A DNA stretch of 45,051 nucleotides from Myxococcales bacterium (GTDB lineage: Bacteria; Myxococcota_A; Polyangia; Haliangiales; Haliangiaceae), in the NCBI GenBank assembly GCA_016794525.1, contig JAEUJY010000089.1, positions 1-45,051 of the forward strand, read 5' to 3'. Position 1 is the first letter of the stretch. The number at the start of each line of letters is the position of its first letter. A model generated the notes under the pieces. It worked only from the letters and a program-made list of their open reading frames with translations, made no database searches and was not told the origin of the DNA. This document shows, piece by piece, positions 30,385-45,051 of the stretch. The position numbers were made by a program, and so were the translations under genes.

Positions 30385-33207
30385 CTACTCGAGCGTCAGG
30401 TCGACGCCGCCGCGCTCGTCGCCGGGACGCAGCTCCAGCTCGAGCTGCGCGCGCAGCCCGCCCTTGGTCGCGCGCAGCGTGACCGTGCCGGTCGGCACGT
30501 CGCGCAGCCGGAACTCGCCGAGGCTGTCGGTGGTGGCGCGGGCCTCGGCGTCGGCGTCGGCGGCCAGCGTCAGCGCGACCCCGGCGACCCGATCGCCGGC
30601 GCGATCGCGGACCACGCCAGTGACCGTCGCGCCGCGCTCGAGCTCGAGCCGCAGATCGGGCGCGGTGATCTGCGCCGGCCGATCACCGGGGGGGACGGTG
30701 ACCGCGAGCGCGCGCGCGACGTAGCCCGGCGTGCGCACCGCGAGGGTCCAGGCGCCGGGCACGATCGGCGTGAGGCGGACGCGCCCGGCGGCGTCGGTGG
30801 ACAGCTCGCGGCGGGCCTTGCCCGGCCCGGTGGCGAGCACCGGCAGGCCTGGCAGGTTGGCGCCGGTGTGGTGATCGAACACGACGAGCTCGAGGCCGCC
30901 GCCCCAGCGCAGCACCACCCGCGCGGCGTCGCCGGTGGTGACCGTCGCGCGCTCGCCCGGGTAGTCGGGGTGCTCGACCCGCAGCTGGATCGGCCCGGCG
31001 GCCAGCATCGTCAACCGGAACCGTCCGCCGGGGCCGGCGACGGTCGCGCGGCCCGCGCCGGCGCCGGCGTCGATCGCGATCCGCGCGCCGACGACCGGGA
31101 GGCCGGCGGGATCCTCGACGACGCCCTCGAGCTCGGCGTCGGCGACGACCAGCGTCACGTCGTAGGGGACGTCGCTGCCGTCGGCGGGGCGCTTGACGTC
31201 GAGGACGCCGGCGAAGTCGCCGTGGCCCCAGGCCCGCGCGCTGACCGCCTGCGCGCCGGCCAGCGGCCCCGCGCGGTAGTTGCCGTCGGCGTCGGTCGCG
31301 ACCTCGACGACGCCGCGGCTGCCGATCGGCTCGGCCGGGGCGAAGCGCACGATCGCGCCGCCGACCGGCGCGCCGCGCTGATCGCTGACGCGCCCCGCGA
31401 CCATCGCGCCGCGCGGCAGCACCAGCTCGACGCCGACGACGATCTGGCCCAGCGCCAGCGTCAGCGGCGCGCCGCGACCGACCGCGAAGCCCGGCGCCTC
31501 GGCGACCGGCACGTAGCCGCCCGCCGGCAGGCCGGTCAGGCGGAAGCGGCCGTCGGCGCCGGTGGTCCAGATCGGGACGTAGGCCGGATCGACCGGCAGC
31601 GGCGCCACCGGCGTGTCGGGATCGAAGGCCGGATCGTCGGCGTCGGTCAGCATCGCGACGGTCGTCCGCGCGGCGCCGGGCGGCGGCGCGAACGGGATCG
31701 GGCCGAGCATCACGCCCAGCTCGCCGCGCGGCACGAACTGCGCGTCGGCCCCCAGCGGCGCGGCGGCCAGCGCCGGCCGCACCGCGAGGCCCAGCGCGCG
31801 CCGCAGCTGCTCGTCGGCGCCGGCGGCGCTGACCTCGAGGCCGCCGCTGCCGCGCCCGGTCGCGGTCACCACCGCGCCGGCCACCGGCGCGCCGGTGTCG
31901 TCGACGACCTTGCCCTCGACCACGCCGCCGGGGATGAGCTCGAGCGTCAGGTCCCCGCGGCCCGGCGTGAAGCTGACCGTGCCGGCGAGCAGCCAGCCCG
32001 GCGCCCACGCCGACGCGGTCCACTTGCCCGGCGGCACGCCCTCGGCGCGGAACCGCCCGTCGGCGTCGGTGCGTACGTGGCGCGGCGCCTCGTCGGCGGC
32101 GTCGGCCGACAGCGTCACCGCCGCGGCCAGCCCGGCGCCGGTCTGGCGATCGACGACGCGCCCGAGCACGATCGCCGCTGGCTCGAGCGCGAGCGTGACG
32201 TCGGCGAACGGGCCGCGCCCCAGCCGCGGCACCCGCAGCGAGCGGGCCGCGCGATCGCCGCGCCACGCCCACACGCGGTAGCTACCCTCGGGCAGCTCGT
32301 CGAACGCGAACTTCCCATCGGCGCCGGCCGTGACCTCGCGGGTGCCGTAGAGCGCGTCGCTGTCGAGCGCGACCGTCGCGCCGGCGGCCGGCTGCCCGCC
32401 GTCGGTGACCACGCCGGCCAGCGCCACGCGCCGCGCCGCGACCAGCCGCATCACGTCGGCGGGCACCGGCACGTACCGCACCTCCGACGTGAAGATCGCC
32501 GCGCCCTCCAGCGTCACCCGGTACCGCCCCGGCACCAGCCCCTCGAGCTCGACGTGCCCATCGGGCCCGGTCACCGCGACCACCGCCACCGCCGGCTCGG
32601 TCGCGCCGACCTTCACCGCCGACTCCGGCACCGCCGTCACCGCCACGTCGCCCACCGGCAGCCCCGCGCCATCCACCACCAGCGCCACCAGCGTCTCGTC
32701 GCCCGGCCCCTTCACCGGCGTCGGCAAGGTCGGCAGCGCCTGCGGCACCAGCGCCGCCCCACCCGCGTCCTTCGCCGTCGCCATCGACGGCCCCATGCCC
32801 ACGCCTCTCGGTCGCATCCGCCGCACCCCGATCACGACCACCAGCACCACCACCGCCAGCAGCACCACCAACCCGATCCACCGCCCCCGCCCCCGCCCGA
32901 TCCCCGTGCCCGTGCCCGTGCCCGTGCCCGTGCCCGTGCCCGTGCTCGTCTCCGTCCCCGTCTCCGTCCCCGACTCCGTCCCCGTCTCCGACTCCGTTCC
33001 CGACTCCGACTCCGTCTCCGATTCCGTGCCGGTCTCGGTCTCGGTCGCGGCGACGGTCTCGGTCTCGGTCGCGGTCGCGGCCACGGTCGCGGCCACGGTC
33101 GCGGTCTCCGTCGCGGTCGCGGTCGCGGCCACGGTCTCGGTCGCGGTCGCGGTCTCGGCCCCGGTCTCGGCCACGCTCTCAGTCTCCTCGTCGCGCACTC
33201 CTGCCAT
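30385..33207 (-). CDS. Membrane-anchored multi-domain carboxypeptidase-regulatory-like protein
   Basis: This 940-residue protein starts with about 100 residues of Thr/Glu/Gly/Ala repeats, then a short basic stretch (GRGRGR), one transmembrane segment (108-126) and RRMRPRG. The rest, about 800 residues, is a chain of roughly eight carboxypeptidase-regulatory-like / Ig-like beta domains. Each shows the signature G-x-V-x-D-x-x-G-x-P-V-x-G-A followed by a DGRF strand and LPxGxY (examples: VVDDTGAPVAGAVV, TGADGRFRLTGLPAGGY, VSDQRGAPVGGAIV). Such domains act as extracellular structural or adhesive modules. It is convergent with the soluble kinase, 26 bp apart. Confidence 0.8.
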   Translation of the reverse strand: MAGVRDEETESVAETGAETATATETVAATATATETATVAATVAATATETETVAATETETGTESETESESGTESETGTESGTETGTETSTGTGTGTGTGTGTGIGRGRGRWIGLVVLLAVVVLVVVIGVRRMRPRGVGMGPSMATAKDAGGAALVPQALPTLPTPVKGPGDETLVALVVDGAGLPVGDVAVTAVPESAVKVGATEPAVAVVAVTGPDGHVELEGLVPGRYRVTLEGAAIFTSEVRYVPVPADVMRLVAARRVALAGVVTDGGQPAAGATVALDSDALYGTREVTAGADGKFAFDELPEGSYRVWAWRGDRAARSLRVPRLGRGPFADVTLALEPAAIVLGRVVDRQTGAGLAAAVTLSADAADEAPRHVRTDADGRFRAEGVPPGKWTASAWAPGWLLAGTVSFTPGRGDLTLELIPGGVVEGKVVDDTGAPVAGAVVTATGRGSGGLEVSAAGADEQLRRALGLAVRPALAAAPLGADAQFVPRGELGVMLGPIPFAPPPGAARTTVAMLTDADDPAFDPDTPVAPLPVDPAYVPIWTTGADGRFRLTGLPAGGYVPVAEAPGFAVGRGAPLTLALGQIVVGVELVLPRGAMVAGRVSDQRGAPVGGAIVRFAPAEPIGSRGVVEVATDADGNYRAGPLAGAQAVSARAWGHGDFAGVLDVKRPADGSDVPYDVTLVVADAELEGVVEDPAGLPVVGARIAIDAGAGAGRATVAGPGGRFRLTMLAAGPIQLRVEHPDYPGERATVTTGDAARVVLRWGGGLELVVFDHHTGANLPGLPVLATGPGKARRELSTDAAGRVRLTPIVPGAWTLAVRTPGYVARALAVTVPPGDRPAQITAPDLRLELERGATVTGVVRDRAGDRVAGVALTLAADADAEARATTDSLGEFRLRDVPTGTVTLRATKGGLRAQLELELRPGDERGGVDLTLE
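32905..33187. repeat. Hexanucleotide tandem repeat in the N-terminal coding region
   Basis: Six perfect CGTGCC units occupy 32905-32940, with a variant CGTGCT next. Hexamer-like variants (CGTCTC, CGTCCC, GGTCTC, GGTCGC) continue to about 33187. On the minus strand they encode Gly-Thr, then Glu-Thr and Ala-Thr alternations in the N-terminal tail of the 940-residue protein. Because the unit is 6 bp, changes in copy number keep the frame. Confidence 0.85.
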
Positions 33208-35478: not shown

Positions 35479-36045
35479 TCACAGCGCGACCAGAGCCGTC
35501 AGCGCCGCGACCGCGACCGCCGCCACCACCAGCAGGTCGAGCACGCGGCCGTAGCTCTGGAGGCGCGCCGTCCACGGCGCCCGCCGGTCGAGCTCGGCGC
35601 ACGGCAGCCCGGCGGTCACGACCGCGCGGCGCAGCGCCTCGAAGCGATCCCAGTCGCGGGCGAACAGGAACCACGCCGAGCCCCGGCGCGGCACGAACGC
35701 GATCGCGTCGCGGTACACCCGCACCGCGGTGACCCGGCGCGCCTCGAGCCGCACCACCAGCGTGCCCCAGCCCCAGCGCACACCGTCGGGGCCGACCCCG
35801 ACCCGGGCCCGCCGCACCGCCCACGCCAGCGCCGCGATCGCGACCGCGGTCACCAGCACGATCAGCCGCGCCGCGCCGTAGTCGGCCGGCGGGTGGCGGC
35901 GGGTCAGCAGCGCCGCGACCACCGCCAGCGCCACCGTCCCGACCAGGCCGCGCCACGCCAGCCGCCGCGGCCCCGGCCGCGCGACGAACCACCCGACCTG
36001 CGCCCCCGCGAGGCCCAGCCCCGGCGGGGTGTCGATCGCGGCCAC
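35479..36045 (-). CDS. Small membrane protein translationally coupled to glnD
   Basis: The GTG at 36045 shares one base with the glnD stop (TAGTG) and gives 188 residues. Two transmembrane segments (LAWRGLVGTVALAVVAALL and LIVLVTAVAIAALAWAV) are followed by a PH-like sheet (VGVGPDGVRWGWGTLVVRLE, VTAVRVYRDAIAFVPRRG, AWFLFARDWDRFEALRRAV). A third hydrophobic segment closes the C-terminus (LDLLVVAAVAVAALTALVAL). The role is unknown. It is the last gene of the acyltransferase-glnD operon. Confidence 0.6.
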   Translation of the reverse strand: MAAIDTPPGLGLAGAQVGWFVARPGPRRLAWRGLVGTVALAVVAALLTRRHPPADYGAARLIVLVTAVAIAALAWAVRRARVGVGPDGVRWGWGTLVVRLEARRVTAVRVYRDAIAFVPRRGSAWFLFARDWDRFEALRRAVVTAGLPCAELDRRAPWTARLQSYGRVLDLLVVAAVAVAALTALVAL

Positions 36046-38705
36046 TACGCGTCCTCGTCGATCGCCGCCGTGACCCGCGCCGCGACCGCGGCCAGCGCCT
36101 CGGGCTCGGTGACCTTGGCGCCGCCGGCGGTCACGTAGAACACGTCGGACACCTTCTCGCCCTCGGTGGCGATCTTGGACACCGAGATGTCGAGGCCGGC
36201 GTCGGCCAGCGCCGCGACCACCGCGTACAGGAGGCCCGGGCGATCGCGCGCGAACACCTCGACGATCGTCGCGTCGCTCGACTCGTCGAGATCGAAGCGC
36301 ACCTCGGTCGGCACCGCCGGCGTGACCCGCGGCGGCAGGCCGGAGCGCGGGCGGCGCCGCGCCACGAGCGCGGCCACCGCGGCGGCGGTCGGCGGCCCGC
36401 CGGCGCACAGCTCGGCCAGATCGTCCTCGATGCGCTTCCACCGCGGATCGCCGGCGGCGATCGCCGCGCCCGCCGGCCCGCGCACGACGAACAGGTCGAG
36501 CGCCAGCGCGCCGTCGGGGGTGACCGCGCGCCCGACCACCGCGCCGAGCACGTCGACCCGGTGCGCCGCCAGCACGCCGGTGATCGCCGCCAGCACGCCG
36601 TGGACGTCGGGCGCCACGACGGCGATCTCGCCGACGCCCGGCGTCGGCAGCGCGGTGACCGCCAGCCCGACCGCGGCGCCGTGGCCCTGGACGTGGGCCG
36701 CGAGGCGCACGTGGCGCGACGCCTGCTCGGCGGTGAGCTGCGCCGCGAACCGCGGATCGAGGCCGGCGGCGATCGAGCCGGCGATGCCGGGATCCATCTC
36801 GCCGGTCGCGCGCGGCGGCAACGCCGACGGCTCGCCGCCGCCGAGCCGCTCGCTCGCGCGCACGTACAGCTCGCGCAACAGCTCGGCCTTCCACGCGGTC
36901 AGGCTGTCGGGCGCGGTCATCGCGGTGTCGCACAGGGTCAGCACGTACAGCGCCGCCAGCCGCTGCGGATCGCCGACCCGCTCGACGAAGCGCGCCACGA
37001 CGTCCGGATCGCTGAGGTCGCGGCGCTGCGACACGTGGGCCATCGTCAGGTGCTGGCGGATCAGGAACTCGACGGTGTCGGCGTCGCGCTCGTCGAGCCC
37101 GAGCCGCCGCGCGACGACGCCGCCGATCACCGCGCCCTTCTCGGCGTGGCCCTTGCCGTGGGGCTTGCCGACGTCGTGCAGGAGCGTCGCCAGGTACAGC
37201 GGCGCGACCCGCGCGACCTGCGCGTAGGCGGTGGTCGCGATCGGGTGGACGTCGGCCAGCTCGCCGCGCGCCAGCTGCTTGAGCATCGCCACCGCGTAGA
37301 GCTGGTGCTGGTCGACGGTGTAGACGTGGTAGAGGTCGTGCTGGACGCGGCCGGTGCACGGCGCCCACTCGGGGACGATCGCGTCGGCGACGCCGAGCCG
37401 GTGCAACCACTCCAGCGCCGACGGCTGCGCGCGATCGCGCGGGTCGCACAGCGCGTCGAGGAACTGCCAGCCGGCGGCGCGGTCGACGAACAGCGCCGCG
37501 CCGGCGGTGACCGCCGCGTCGGCGATCGCGTCCTTGGTCGCGGCGGCGACCGCGAGGCCGTGATCGACCGCGACCCGGAACACCCGCACCTGCTCGGCCG
37601 GCGCCTCGACCAGCCGCGCCGGCGCGATCGCCGCCAGCTCGCCGTCGATGACCGCGACGACCTCGTCGAGCTTGCGCACCCGCGGCGCGCGCCGCCGCGG
37701 CAGCCGGGCGCGGGCCAGCAGCCGCTCGGCGAGGTCGCCGATCGCCCGGGCGTGCAGGTAGAAGTCGCGCATCAGCGCCTGGACCGCCGGCGCCACCGCG
37801 GCCCGCGACTCGGCGGCCGGCGCCAGCGCCGGGTACCACGCCGGCGCGATCGCCTCCTGCAGCTCGAAGGTCAGGTGGTCGTTGGCGCGCCCGACCCGCA
37901 GCTGCACCCGCGCCCGCAGCGCCAGCAAGAAGTCGCGCGCGGCCAGCAGCGCCGCGGCCTCGCGCGGCCGGACGTGGCCCAGCGCGGCCAGCCGCTCGAT
38001 GCTCTCGGCCGGCGACGGCCACGGCGACTCGGCGAGGAGCCAGCGCGCCCGCGCCGCCCACACCGCGATCGCCAGATCGCGCAGCCCGCCGATGCCCTGC
38101 TTGAGGTTGGGCTCGAGGCGGTACAGCGAGTCGCCGAACCGCGCGTGGCGCCGCGCCTGATCGTCGGCCAGCGCGGCGATCAGCCGATCGGCGTCGCCGG
38201 CCGGCGCGATCGCGGCCCGGGCCGCGGCGAGCAGCGTCTCGGTCAGCCCGAGGTCGCCGACGATCGGCCGCAGGTCGCACAGCGCGGTGGCGGTCGCCAG
38301 ATCGTCCTTCGCCAGCTTCGCGCACTCGCGCGGCTCGCGCACCGCGTGGCCGACCGCGACCCGCGCGTCCCACAGCGGGTACAGCAGCCGATCGGCGACC
38401 CGCCGCGCCGCGGCCTCGGCGCCGGCGTGGACGACGATGAAGTCGATGTCCGAGTACGGCGCCAGCTCGCGGCGGGCCCAGCCGCCGGTCGCGACCAGCG
38501 CCAGCGGCGCGGTCTCGCCGGCCATCGCCGCCCGCCAGCGCGCGACGATCGCGCGATCGTAGACGTCGGCCAGCGCCGCCGCGGCCACCGCGCCGGCCGG
38601 CGTGGCCTCGAGGCCGGCGGCCAGCTGCCCGCGCACCCGGCCCAGCTCGGCGCGCAGCGCGGCGCCCGCCTCGGCCCGCGCGGCGTCGATGGGCGGCGCG
38701 GTCAC
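36045..38705 (-). CDS. glnD: Bifunctional uridylyltransferase/uridylyl-removing enzyme
   Basis: The GTG at 38705 overlaps the upstream stop (GTGA) and gives 886 residues. GlnD adds or removes UMP on the PII protein in response to glutamine. The nucleotidyltransferase motif is GG (74-75) with Asp86 and Asp88 in SDIDF. LEPNLKQGIGGLRDL is a strong GlnD signature. The HD hydrolase domain has its His-Asp at 510-511 in LLHDVGKPHGKGH. Two ACT domains follow (IAVVAPDVHGVLAAITGVLA, and VEVFARDRPGLLYAVVAALA). All key residues are present. It is embedded in an operon with lipid-related genes, with no nitrogen gene next to it. Confidence 0.95.
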   Translation of the reverse strand: MTAPPIDAARAEAGAALRAELGRVRGQLAAGLEATPAGAVAAAALADVYDRAIVARWRAAMAGETAPLALVATGGWARRELAPYSDIDFIVVHAGAEAAARRVADRLLYPLWDARVAVGHAVREPRECAKLAKDDLATATALCDLRPIVGDLGLTETLLAAARAAIAPAGDADRLIAALADDQARRHARFGDSLYRLEPNLKQGIGGLRDLAIAVWAARARWLLAESPWPSPAESIERLAALGHVRPREAAALLAARDFLLALRARVQLRVGRANDHLTFELQEAIAPAWYPALAPAAESRAAVAPAVQALMRDFYLHARAIGDLAERLLARARLPRRRAPRVRKLDEVVAVIDGELAAIAPARLVEAPAEQVRVFRVAVDHGLAVAAATKDAIADAAVTAGAALFVDRAAGWQFLDALCDPRDRAQPSALEWLHRLGVADAIVPEWAPCTGRVQHDLYHVYTVDQHQLYAVAMLKQLARGELADVHPIATTAYAQVARVAPLYLATLLHDVGKPHGKGHAEKGAVIGGVVARRLGLDERDADTVEFLIRQHLTMAHVSQRRDLSDPDVVARFVERVGDPQRLAALYVLTLCDTAMTAPDSLTAWKAELLRELYVRASERLGGGEPSALPPRATGEMDPGIAGSIAAGLDPRFAAQLTAEQASRHVRLAAHVQGHGAAVGLAVTALPTPGVGEIAVVAPDVHGVLAAITGVLAAHRVDVLGAVVGRAVTPDGALALDLFVVRGPAGAAIAAGDPRWKRIEDDLAELCAGGPPTAAAVAALVARRRPRSGLPPRVTPAVPTEVRFDLDESSDATIVEVFARDRPGLLYAVVAALADAGLDISVSKIATEGEKVSDVFYVTAGGAKVTEPEALAAVAARVTAAIDEDA

Positions 38706-40195
38706 GGCCGCGGCGTCCGGTACTGCACGACGACGGCGCCGCGGGCCACGCCGTCGGGCGCGACCGTCACCACGCGGCGCCAGCGATCGTGCTTGAGCAC
38801 GCCGCCGCCCTCGGCCGCCTCGGGCCGCTCGAACCGCACCACCGCCGCGCCCGGGTAGCGCAGCTCCTCCTCGATCGTCACCTCGACCGGCGCGTCGCCG
38901 TGGTTGGCGACCGAGTACAGGATCTCGTCGACGACGTGGCGGTCGTCGCGGGCCAGCTCGCGCTTGTGGCGGTAGCCGATCAGCGTGGCCGAGCTGGCCA
39001 GCGGCACCCGGACCGCGACCGGCGGCTCGAGCGCCGGCGCCGGCAAGATCGCGCGCACCCGGCGGGCCGCGTCGCCGTCGAGCACGACCTCGAGCGGCCC
39101 GGCGACGTCGGTCGGCGCCGGCGCCAGCGCCAGCTCGCGCCAGACCAGGCCATGGGACGCGGCGTGCCAGTACTCGCCGGCGGGTGGCTCGTCGGCGCTG
39201 CCCAGCGCGCCGCGGTAGACCCAGCCCGCCCGCGCCGGCCGCGCGGCGGTGGCGCCGGTGACGACCACCGGCCCGCCGCCGAGCGTGAGCTCGCCGCGCC
39301 ACGCCTCGGCCGGCGCGAACGGCCCGTCGGGCAGCCCGGCCACCAGCCGCACCGTCGCGGCGCGCGGCGTGGTCAGGCCCGGCGCGACGATCGTGTAGCG
39401 CGGCGTCAGCGGCGCCTCGGTGATCGCCGCCTCGCCGCGCAGCTCGACGCGGTAGCTGGCCGTCCAGCCGAAGCCGGGGCTGGCGTAGCCCAGCCGCACC
39501 AGCTGCCGGCCCGGCGCGCCGCTGGTCACGTGGCAGCGCAGCCCGGGGCGATCGTCGTCGAGGCGGATCGCGGCCACCGCGTCGAGCGGCACCGCGCGGG
39601 CCTGGCCGTCGGCCAGCCCGACGGTCACCGACCGCGGGCGCACGCTCACCACCGGGCCGAGGACGCGGTCGCCGCCCGGCGTCTCGCCGCGCACGACCTG
39701 CCCCACCGCCGGCGCGGCCGCGAGCGCCTCGCCGCCGCCGTCGACCAGCGCGCCGGCCTCGACCTGGCCGAGCGCGTCGTCGGCGACGATCGTCACCGGC
39801 GCGCCCACCGCGAGCAGCGTCCCGGCCACCACCTCGCCGCCGGCGATCGTCACCTGGACGGCGCGGCCGAGCGCCGCCGGCAGCTCGCCGGTGCCGCGGG
39901 TCACGCCGGCCGGGCGACACGCCGACGCGGTGAGCGCGCCGCGCCCGTCGACCGCGGCCAGCACCACCGAGTCCAGCTCGACGTCGGCCGCGACGTCGGG
40001 CAGCTCGAGCCAGCCGTCGGCCGGCACGACGACCCAGCGGCGATCGTCGACGAAGGCCCGCCCGGCGCCGGTGGCGCGATCGACGTGGATCGCGATCGCC
40101 AGCCCCGGCGTGACCGCCGGCCGCGCGCCGCCGCCGTGGACACAGCCGACCAGCGCGAGCGCGCCGACCGCGAGCCCGCGCGCGCCGCGCGCCAT
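38702..40195 (-). CDS. DUF4139-like lipoprotein
   Basis: The ATG at 40195 overlaps the upstream stop by one base (TGATG); a GTG one codon earlier is also possible. The protein has about 497 residues with a lipobox ending LALVGC. An N-terminal beta-rich domain (RATGAGRAFVDDRRWVVVPA, ELPDVAADVELDSVVL) is followed by a part resembling DUF4139/mucoidy-inhibitor-like proteins: LGYASPGFGWTASYRVELRG, AATVRLVAGLPDGPF, VPLASSATLIGYRHKRELA, LYSVANHGDAPVEVTIEEEL. These are usually periplasmic or surface proteins of unknown role. It lies between the GpsA-like gene and glnD. Confidence 0.6.
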   Translation of the reverse strand: MARGARGLAVGALALVGCVHGGGARPAVTPGLAIAIHVDRATGAGRAFVDDRRWVVVPADGWLELPDVAADVELDSVVLAAVDGRGALTASACRPAGVTRGTGELPAALGRAVQVTIAGGEVVAGTLLAVGAPVTIVADDALGQVEAGALVDGGGEALAAAPAVGQVVRGETPGGDRVLGPVVSVRPRSVTVGLADGQARAVPLDAVAAIRLDDDRPGLRCHVTSGAPGRQLVRLGYASPGFGWTASYRVELRGEAAITEAPLTPRYTIVAPGLTTPRAATVRLVAGLPDGPFAPAEAWRGELTLGGGPVVVTGATAARPARAGWVYRGALGSADEPPAGEYWHAASHGLVWRELALAPAPTDVAGPLEVVLDGDAARRVRAILPAPALEPPVAVRVPLASSATLIGYRHKRELARDDRHVVDEILYSVANHGDAPVEVTIEEELRYPGAAVVRFERPEAAEGGGVLKHDRWRRVVTVAPDGVARGAVVVQYRTPRP

Positions 40196-41177
40196 CACTC
40201 CTCCGCCGCCACCGTGTCGGCGGCCAGCCGCGCGGCGTCGGCCACCGACGCCTTGCCGGCCACCACCGCGGCCAGCCCGGCGAGGAGCGGCATCCGCACG
40301 CGCTTGCGCTCGGCGAGCCGCAGCGCGGTCACCGCCGCGCGCGCGCCCTCGGTGGGCCGGGTCGTCGCGGCCTCGCCGCGGGCCAGCGCCTGGCCGAAGG
40401 CGTAGTCGGGATCGTCGGCGCTGGCGCCGCGCACCAGCAGGTTGCCCAGGCCGGCCAGCCCGGCGAACGTGCGCGCCTGGCCGCCGGCCGCCTCGAGCAG
40501 CCGCGCCGCCTCGGCCACCGCGCGGGTCACCAGCACCGCCCGCGGGCCGACGCCGACCTTGACGCCGTCGGCGAGCCCGAGCGCCGCGGTGTAGGCGCCG
40601 GCCAGCGCCGACGCCAGCTCGACGCCGATCACGTCGCGCGAGCCGTACAGCCGCAGCGCCGGCGGCAGGTTGAGCAGCCGGCGGGTCTCGGCGGTCACCT
40701 CGTCGAACGCCGACGCCACCACCATCGACGCGAACCGGCCGGCGGCCAGATCGCCGGGCAGCGCCGGCCCGGCCAGCACGCCCGCGCGCAAGACCGGCGT
40801 CGCGCGCTCGATCAGCTCGCTGACCCGGACGTCGTCGGGCGCGGCCAGCGCGCCGACCGCGTGGACGATCAGGTGGCTGCCGTCGAGCACCGCGCCCAGC
40901 TCGACGAGGCGCGGCCCGACGTCGGTCGAGGTCACCGCGATCACCAGGAACCGCGCCGCCGCCGCCAGCTCGCGCGGCGACTCGACGACGCGCACCGCCT
41001 CGGGCACCGCCACGTCGGGCAGCCGCGGGCAGCGCCGCGTCGTCGCGATGGCCTGCGCCACCGCCGGCGTGCGGGTGTAGAGCACGACCGCGCGCCCGGC
41101 CCGGGCCAGCGCCACGGCCAGCGCGGTGCCGAAGCTGCCCGCGCCGACGATGCCGACGGTGTCGCCCTTGGTCGCGG

Positions 41178-41181
<4 letters not shown>
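40195..41181 (-). CDS. GpsA-like protein lacking catalytic residues (pseudoenzyme)
   Basis: The GTG at 41181, overlapping the acyltransferase stop (GTGA), gives 328 residues that align end to end with glycerol-3-phosphate dehydrogenase. The NAD-binding GAGSFGTALA (13-22) and the C-terminal TFAGLAGLGNLL region are clear. The catalytic residues are changed, compared with E. coli GpsA: the Lys of ATKG is Val109 (HAVGA), the Lys of VKNV is Ala194 (ALAGA), the Asp of GLGDL is Asn247, and the Arg-Asn of QSRN is Pro258-Asp259. The protein should bind dinucleotide but not oxidise or reduce glycerol 3-phosphate. Placement after a PlsB-like gene suggests a regulatory or sensing role. Confidence 0.85.
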
Positions 41182-42791
<1,610 letters not shown>

Positions 42792-42807
42792 GGTGTACTC
42801 ATACACC
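42792..42807. promoter_or_regulatory. Inverted repeat abutting the acyltransferase start, with -10-like TATGAG
   Basis: GGTGTA-CTCA-TACACC is a perfect 6-bp inverted repeat lying directly before the ATG at 42791. On the minus strand it contains TATGAG (42798-42803), a four-of-six -10 match 6 nt before the ATG. A protein bound here would block the promoter; in RNA it would form a hairpin at the start codon. Confidence 0.4.
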
Positions 42808-43117
42808 GGGCTCGCCGCCTCTGCCGATCGCCGCCCACGCAATTTCGGGGTCAGTCGCCCAGCCCCCGCGCCCGGCGATGCCCTGAGCGCGCCTCCACCC
42901 GGGACGATTTCGTCCATCCCCCCTAGCCGGCCGCCGCGGCCGTGTTAAGGTCGCTCCACGCGCGGCGCTCGTGCTGGGTACGAGCGACGCGACGGATCGC
43001 CCGCCGGGCTCCCGGCAGTGCATCCAACCACTCGACGGACCATGGGATTGCCATGGCGGCAGTGGGCGCGGCTCGAGCATCTGTGGCTTGAGCCGACCCA
43101 GGCGAAGGCCAGGATCG
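42808..43117. other. Divergent intergenic region between acyltransferase and recQ
   Basis: About 310 bp without a credible gene. It must hold the recQ promoter. A weak ribosome site (GAAGG at 43104-43108, 9 nt before the ATG at 43118) is visible. No palindrome array, tRNA or clear terminator was seen. Confidence 0.5.
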
Positions 43118-45051
43118 ATGGCAACGAGCAAGCGGACCAAGACCGGCGCGGCCGGTCCCACCAAGGCAGCCAAGGCGGCGCCCACCAAGGCGACCAAGCC
43201 GGCGGCCCCACGCTCGCGCAAACGCGCCGAGCCGGAACCGGAGCCCGCGCCCGCGCCCGTCGCCGCTGCCCCCGCACCCGCGCGATCATCGCGCAGCAAG
43301 AAGGCCGCCGAGCCGCCCGCGTCGCCGCCGGCCCCCGCCGCGCCGCCGCCGCCGCGCCTCGCCGAGGTCAACCCCGACACGCTGCTCGCGCTCGGTCGCG
43401 AGGTCCTCGGGATCACCGACTACCGCCCCGGCCAGCGCCAGGCCATCGAGCACATCCTCGCCGGCAAGGACGTGATCGCGGTGATGCCCACCGGCTCGGG
43501 CAAGTCGCTCCTGTACCAGCTGCCGTCGCTGGTCTTGCCGGGCCTGACCGTCGTCGTGTCGCCGCTGATCGCGCTGATCAAGGATCAGGTCGACAAGATG
43601 GTGGCGAAGGGCGTCGCGGTGGTGCGCATCGACTCGACGCTGACCACCCGGCAGCGGCGCGAGATGGACGAGCTGGCGCGGGCGCCGGGCGGCAAGCTCT
43701 TGCTGACCACGCCCGAGCGCATGGCCGATCCCGAGTTCCGCACGTTCTTGCGCGAGTGCGCGGGCGCCACCGGCGTGTCGCGGTTCGTCGTCGACGAGGC
43801 CCACTGCGTCTCGCAGTGGGGCCACGACTTCCGGCCGGCGTACCTGTCGCTGCGCAAGGCGCTCGAGGACGTGGGCCGCCCGCCGGTGCTGGCCACCACC
43901 GCCACCGCGCCGCCGCACGTCCGGCTCGACATCGTCGAGCAGCTCGGCATCGACACCGCCGAGATCGTCACGACGACCTTCGATCGCCCCAACCTCCACT
44001 ACGAGGTGATCACGTTCCCGGGCGAGGACGACAAGGTCAAGACGCTGGTCACGCTGCTCAAGAAGCTGCCGCGCCCCGGCATCGTCTACTGCGCGACGGT
44101 GAAGAAGGTCGAGGAGCTGCACGAGGCCCTCGCCCGCCACGGCATCCCGGTGGCGAAGTACCACGGCCGCCTCACCAAGACCGAGCGCGACGCCGAGCAA
44201 GAGCGGTTCATGGCCAGCAAGGATCTGGTCATGCTGGCGACCAACGCGTTCGGCCTTGGCGTCGACAAGAAGGACGTCCGCAACGTCCTGCACTACCACG
44301 TGCCCGGCTCCCTCGAGGCCTACGCACAGGAGGCCGGCCGCGGCGGGCGCGACGGCAAGCCCACCCGCTGCGTGCTCCTGTTCTCGCCCGACGACGTGGC
44401 GATCCAGGAGTACTTCCTGTCGGGCACCTACCCGACCCGGCGCCAGGTCAAGTCGGTCTACGACTCGCTGTGCGCCTACGCCAACCACACCGACGACACG
44501 CCGGCCAACGTCGCCAACATCGCGCTCGGCGCCGGCGTCGGCGCGCAGCGCACCCGGACGGTGCTGTCGCTGCTCAAGGACGAGGGCTTCATCGTCGAGA
44601 AGGGCGACGGCATCTACGAGCTGGCCGATCCGCCGCTGCCCGACGAGCTGCTGATGGAGAAGGCCCGGCAGTACGAGGGCCGCCGCATCGCCGACCGCCG
44701 CCGCCTCGACGCGCTGCTCCTGTACGTGAAGGTGCCGGGGTGCCGCAACCAGGCGATCCTCGACTACCTCGGCGAGGCCGGCGCGCCCAGCTGCGGCCGC
44801 TGCGACAACTGCCTGCGCTCGCGCGACGCGGCGCTGGCCGCCGCCACCGAGGCCAGCGTGCTCGGCGCCCGGGTCACCCGGCAGCTCGACGAGGAGGGCG
44901 CCGGCAACGACAAGCCCAAGCGCATCGTCAAGCACCGCGTGGTGCGCATCGATCAGCCACCGGCCGAGGCGGTCGCGGCGCCCGCCCCGGCGCCGCTGCC
45001 CCCGCCGGCCCCGGCCCCCGCGGTGCGCCGCCGCGCCGCCGAGGTCGCCCC
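43118..45051 (+). CDS. recQ: ATP-dependent DNA helicase RecQ, 3' end outside the window
   Basis: The frame from the ATG at 43118 stays open to the window edge (644 full codons). RecQ is a 3'-5' helicase in recombination and fork repair. After an 80-residue Ala/Lys/Pro-rich tail come motif 0 (YRPGQRQAI), Walker A MPTGSGKS (123-130), SPLIALIKDQV, DEAH at 226-229 with the aromatic loop HCVSQWGHDFRPAY, TATAPPHVR, FDRPNLHYEV, and motif VI QEAGRGGRDG. The RQC zinc-binding cysteines are visible in CRNQAILDYL and CGRCDNC. A Pro-Ala-rich region begins near the window end. The Lys-rich tail resembles histone H1-type tails seen in myxobacterial proteins. Confidence 0.95.
   Translation, partial: MATSKRTKTGAAGPTKAAKAAPTKATKPAAPRSRKRAEPEPEPAPAPVAAAPAPARSSRSKKAAEPPASPPAPAAPPPPRLAEVNPDTLLALGREVLGITDYRPGQRQAIEHILAGKDVIAVMPTGSGKSLLYQLPSLVLPGLTVVVSPLIALIKDQVDKMVAKGVAVVRIDSTLTTRQRREMDELARAPGGKLLLTTPERMADPEFRTFLRECAGATGVSRFVVDEAHCVSQWGHDFRPAYLSLRKALEDVGRPPVLATTATAPPHVRLDIVEQLGIDTAEIVTTTFDRPNLHYEVITFPGEDDKVKTLVTLLKKLPRPGIVYCATVKKVEELHEALARHGIPVAKYHGRLTKTERDAEQERFMASKDLVMLATNAFGLGVDKKDVRNVLHYHVPGSLEAYAQEAGRGGRDGKPTRCVLLFSPDDVAIQEYFLSGTYPTRRQVKSVYDSLCAYANHTDDTPANVANIALGAGVGAQRTRTVLSLLKDEGFIVEKGDGIYELADPPLPDELLMEKARQYEGRRIADRRRLDALLLYVKVPGCRNQAILDYLGEAGAPSCGRCDNCLRSRDAALAAATEASVLGARVTRQLDEEGAGNDKPKRIVKHRVVRIDQPPAEAVAAPAPAPLPPPAPAPAVRRRAAEVA

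Follow-up and report, generated by a model that had tools for sequence, protein, structure and literature searches.

The question raised by this locus is why an operon should keep, directly behind an acyltransferase gene, a relative of glycerol-3-phosphate dehydrogenase (GPDH) in which the active-site residues have been replaced. We analysed a stretch of 45,051 nucleotides (the window), in which the features relevant to this question are as follows:

41178..42917, minus strand: act, a PlsB-like acyltransferase of 579 aa as called, with the motifs HSSNMD and GTRCR kept
41178..41181, minus strand: GTGA overlap, combining the TGA stop of act and the GTG start of gpsA2
40195..41181, minus strand: gpsA2, a catalytically degenerate GpsA paralogue of 328 aa, with a GTG start at 41181 and a TGA stop at 40195
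38702..40198, minus strand: protein of 498 aa without a Pfam match; the gpsA2 stop overlaps with its GTG start
36045-38702, minus strand: GlnD (PII uridylyltransferase, PF08335), downstream of gpsA2
42971-45049, plus strand: RecQ-like helicase, oriented divergently to the act-gpsA2 operon and a conserved neighbour in the family
30385-33207, minus strand: protein of 940 aa with seven carboxypeptidase-regulatory-like repeats

The first-pass annotation described gpsA2 as a protein with the NAD-binding loop and overall GpsA alignment kept, and as an intact frame coupled to the acyltransferase gene by the GTGA overlap, and these descriptions are borne out by the data. Both the N-terminal and C-terminal GPDH domains are matched (PF01210, E=1.3e-23; PF07479, E=6.3e-24), the loop GxGxxG is retained in the family alignment, and the 328-aa open reading frame and its overlap were confirmed. 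The protein scores below every NCBIfam GpsA cut-off, with 195.5 bits for the top model against a cut-off of 257, while the canonical GpsA from the same genome reaches 413 bits with that model.

Residue positions were set by alignment to the solved GpsA 3K96 and to the GpsA family alignment, and seven conserved active-site residues were found to be replaced in gpsA2 (K→Gly110, K→A194, N→G195, D→N247, T→R251, R→P258 and N→D259), so that neither the catalytic Lys-Lys-Asp (now G110, A194 and N247) nor the phosphate-binding Arg-Asn (now P258 and D259) of GpsA is left. Both alignments agree with the earlier reading of the Asp as Asn247 and of the Arg-Asn pair as Pro258-Asp259; the loss of both catalytic lysines also holds, as does Ala194, but the ungapped alignment places the first lysine at Gly110 rather than at Val109, an error of one position, and the replacements at Gly195 and Arg251 had been missed. 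The six catalytic residues tabulated (K, K, N, D, R, N) are present in every one of 102 reference or intact sequences, so their loss from gpsA2 is not a matter of chance. The equivalent residues in human GPDH, matched to the bacterial positions by motif order, are K120, K204, N205, D260, T264, R269 and N270, where the single changes K120A, K204A, D260G, R269A and N270A cost 3 to 9 kcal/mol, R269A alone lowers kcat/Km 4.5 million-fold, and R269 and N270 hold the substrate phosphate (PMC12874384). With all seven residues lost, GPDH activity of gpsA2 is very unlikely, and judging from these residues the protein would lack catalytic activity. Binding of glycerol 3-phosphate or dihydroxyacetone phosphate (DHAP) in the old way is likewise unlikely, and the earlier suggestion that gpsA2 perhaps binds either compound is weakened by the absence of the Arg-Asn pair that corresponds to human R269/N270.

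To place this loss in time, we compared 64 act-linked copies from the class of the window (Myxococcota, Polyangia) with 22 canonical and 75 further GpsA sequences. The latter two groups retain K, K, N, D, R and N without exception, whereas only 5/64 act-linked copies are catalytically intact (L034, L036, L037, L176 and L177), and K194 and N195 survive in those five only; the other 59 show that residue loss is shared among homologues with the same neighbour, the comparison by which the first-pass annotation had proposed to check its reading. In the degenerate set of 62 sequences, which includes three unlinked copies, K110 is kept in three, T251 and R258 in two each, and K194, N195 and N259 in none, while D247 is retained in 39%. 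Sixteen other invariant positions, including the NAD-loop glycines, E224 and E278, are 92-100% kept in the same set. The erasure is concentrated on, albeit not confined to, catalytic and substrate-binding residues, as these were lost while the sixteen invariant positions stayed. With the loop glycines kept in 93-98% of the degenerate copies, binding of NAD(H) by gpsA2 is plausible. The loss is common to the compared orthologues within the family of the window, where H107, N247, R251 and Y260 are invariant, whereas across the class the replacements vary by lineage (K110 to G or R; K194 to V, S, A or others; D247 to N or E, or staying D). One genome (G031) contains two act-gpsA2 pairs, one intact (L036) and one degenerate (L049), plus a canonical gpsA, and offers a natural comparison.

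The dN/dS values of degenerate gpsA2 are mostly 0.12-0.31 (0.17-0.31 for most pairs; 0.12 for L097/L115, from 0.16/1.32), with two close pairs lower at 0.04-0.06, and the values for comparison are 0.18-0.31 for act and 0.11-0.23 for canonical gpsA; gpsA2 is thus under purifying selection. Recent decay is rejected by these values together with the class-wide shared loss. Extra unlinked GpsA-like copies were also seen in two genomes (L041 and L042, in G044 and G052), and these are strongly degenerate with a dN/dS of about 0.04. The search for a second, intact gpsA in the genome of the window (9.8 Mb, 177 contigs), which the first-pass annotation had called for, found a canonical copy on contig C95 (L054), ruling out gpsA2 as the sole GpsA; a weak PF01210 match on contig C37 was left out of the GpsA count. 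The annotation's proposal of a maintained pseudoenzyme agrees with these results, as the loss is old and shared by orthologues, the gene is under purifying selection and kept with the acyltransferase, an active paralogue is present, and gpsA2 is neither the only GpsA of its genome nor a case of recent decay.

Retention of a second GpsA follows the presence of act. Among 212 genomes that are at least 90% complete, at least two GpsA-family genes were found in 147/151 genomes with act vs 13/61 without (Fisher p=1.1e-30, a value which ignores phylogeny, of which the counts are not independent), and in an earlier set of 56 genomes this was true for all 44 with act and for none of the 12 without, which have one. 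The exceptions with act and a single GpsA-family gene are G064, G111 and G195, where assembly gaps are possible, and G039, where gpsA2 is cut at the contig end. In nearly every locus act is directly upstream of gpsA2, mostly with a 4-bp overlap. In G046 the two genes are on different contigs, non-adjacent, and both survive, and in L082 (genome G018) about 1.9 kb is inserted between them. No gpsA2 was found in the fetched flank of act in four of 20 further act loci (L180, L186, L191 and L192). Some genomes have a second act copy without an adjacent gpsA2 (L077-L080), and act may therefore work without gpsA2 in cis.

With regard to the partner, homology of act starts at about residue 34-60, and translation may in fact begin at a later ATG. 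It contains the PlsB motifs HX4D and G(G/T)RxR, and in a motif search HX4D and GTRxR were kept in all act sequences but one, while the score of 53.7 bits does not reach the PlsB equivalog cut-off of 618.5 bits. PlsY was found in none of the five genomes of the genus of the window in the class search (G000, G001, G002, G004 and G006), and because of the motifs and the lack of a PlsY match in its own and four same-genus genomes, act is probably a glycerol-3-phosphate 1-acyltransferase starting phospholipid synthesis; the presence of PlsX twice and of twelve PF01553 domains in its own genome counts against certainty in this. A role as strict PlsY replacement was rejected, as PlsY is present in many act-bearing relatives, though absent from the genus itself. 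The 498-aa protein has relatives with 28-40% identity, located downstream of gpsA2 in many family members; it is probably co-transcribed with gpsA2, and as its relatives were found only in the family of the window it probably lies outside the conserved core. In several relatives glnD also follows gpsA2 (L025, L027, L048, L050 and L052).

The pairing of the two genes is older than the catalytic death of the dehydrogenase, because sampled Bacteroidota carry act beside an intact GpsA: a homologous acyltransferase gene precedes it in many of the sampled loci (e.g. L099, L104 and L105), and these GpsAs share a histidine, three residues before the first lysine, which marks all act-linked copies. In the gpsA tree, which has long branches, the canonical GpsAs fall apart from those act-linked copies that are intact, and both from a large group of degenerate sequences. 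In a quick tree of act, the degenerate partners sit in three separate places (the main clade; L043/L044/L047; L046), which suggests at least three losses of the catalytic residues.

We consider it somewhat more probable than its opposite that gpsA2 is a pseudoenzyme maintained for its role as a non-catalytic partner to the acyltransferase. Its ancestor would be the active dehydrogenase encoded in a two-gene operon of acyltransferase and GPDH, still intact in sampled Bacteroidota and a few Polyangia, and most Polyangia would have lost the catalytic residues, in one event in the main lineage and probably in two others. We propose that this loss was possible because the separate canonical GpsA makes glycerol 3-phosphate, and that a need of the acyltransferase for the protein explains its retention. 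Most likely gpsA2 would bind the acyltransferase as a non-catalytic subunit, with the retained NAD(H)-binding fold used to stabilise or tune the step in which glycerol 3-phosphate is first acylated; that the two proteins touch, that gpsA2 binds NAD(H) and that it regulates the acyltransferase is what we infer. A bolder version, which we regard as speculative and rather unlikely, is that the first acylation in Polyangia is performed by a two-subunit enzyme in which the dead GPDH subunit senses NAD(H) and ties membrane synthesis to redox state, as what is left of a channelling complex of GPDH and GPAT that Bacteroidota would still have in active form.

The same retained fold could also serve a neofunctionalised oxidoreductase, with the active site rebuilt around new catalytic residues for another substrate, e.g. 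acyl-DHAP or another lipid intermediate that the acyltransferase produces. The lineage-conserved replacements, such as the four invariant family residues, are what a functional pocket would show, and the partner is an acyltransferase; against this, the replacements differ between lineages of the class, no common new acid/base was found and the phosphate-binding Arg-Asn is gone, making this reading doubtful. Less probable still is that gpsA2 forms heterodimers with the active canonical GpsA and modulates it, for which there is precedent in dead paralogues activating their active relatives (trypanosome AdoMetDC prozyme, PMC5201418; deoxyhypusine synthase, PMC3663545), whereas it is act, not canonical gpsA, that gpsA2 adjoins and co-occurs with, 48/61 act-free genomes having at most one GpsA-family gene. 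The lost residues, the redundancy with canonical gpsA and the long branches would also fit a decaying or neutral remnant, kept solely through translational coupling in the operon, but frames are open and the gene is retained throughout the class with the dN/dS values given above, and it also survives in G046, where it is not adjacent to act, so we give this explanation very little credence.

If the non-catalytic partner reading is true, a large bacterial class would rely on a pseudoenzyme subunit when it commits to making membrane lipids, and the Bacteroidota pair with its intact dehydrogenase would become a candidate dehydrogenase-acyltransferase complex. As this partner has probably died more than once, in separate lineages, and its copies range by degrees from intact to dead, what a pseudoenzyme is kept for could be tested directly here. 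An automatic annotation would be inclined to label gpsA2 genes as glycerol-3-phosphate dehydrogenase, which is probably wrong as to activity. We found no description of a GpsA-type pseudoenzyme or a GpsA-PlsB complex in the titles and abstracts of the open-access papers returned by our literature searches.

Compared with known systems, gpsA2 resembles GpsA, the NAD(P)H-dependent glycerol-3-phosphate dehydrogenase (PF01210 and PF07479), in full-length homology, both domains and the NAD-loop glycines, and differs from it in the replacement of all seven compared active-site residues and in falling under the NCBIfam cut-offs. Similarly, act shares the acyltransferase domain and the HX4D and GTRxR motifs with PlsB and GPAT1, but is shorter (about 540-580 aa) and far under the PlsB equivalog cut-off. 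The trypanosomatid prozymes of AdoMetDC and deoxyhypusine synthase are likewise catalytically dead paralogues kept alongside an active relative, although these bind their own active paralogue, whereas the conserved partner of gpsA2 is an unrelated acyltransferase, to which binding is putative. The act-gpsA pair of the Bacteroidota is like that of the window in gene order, in its homologous acyltransferase and in the histidine three residues before the first lysine, with the difference that the dehydrogenase is intact there.
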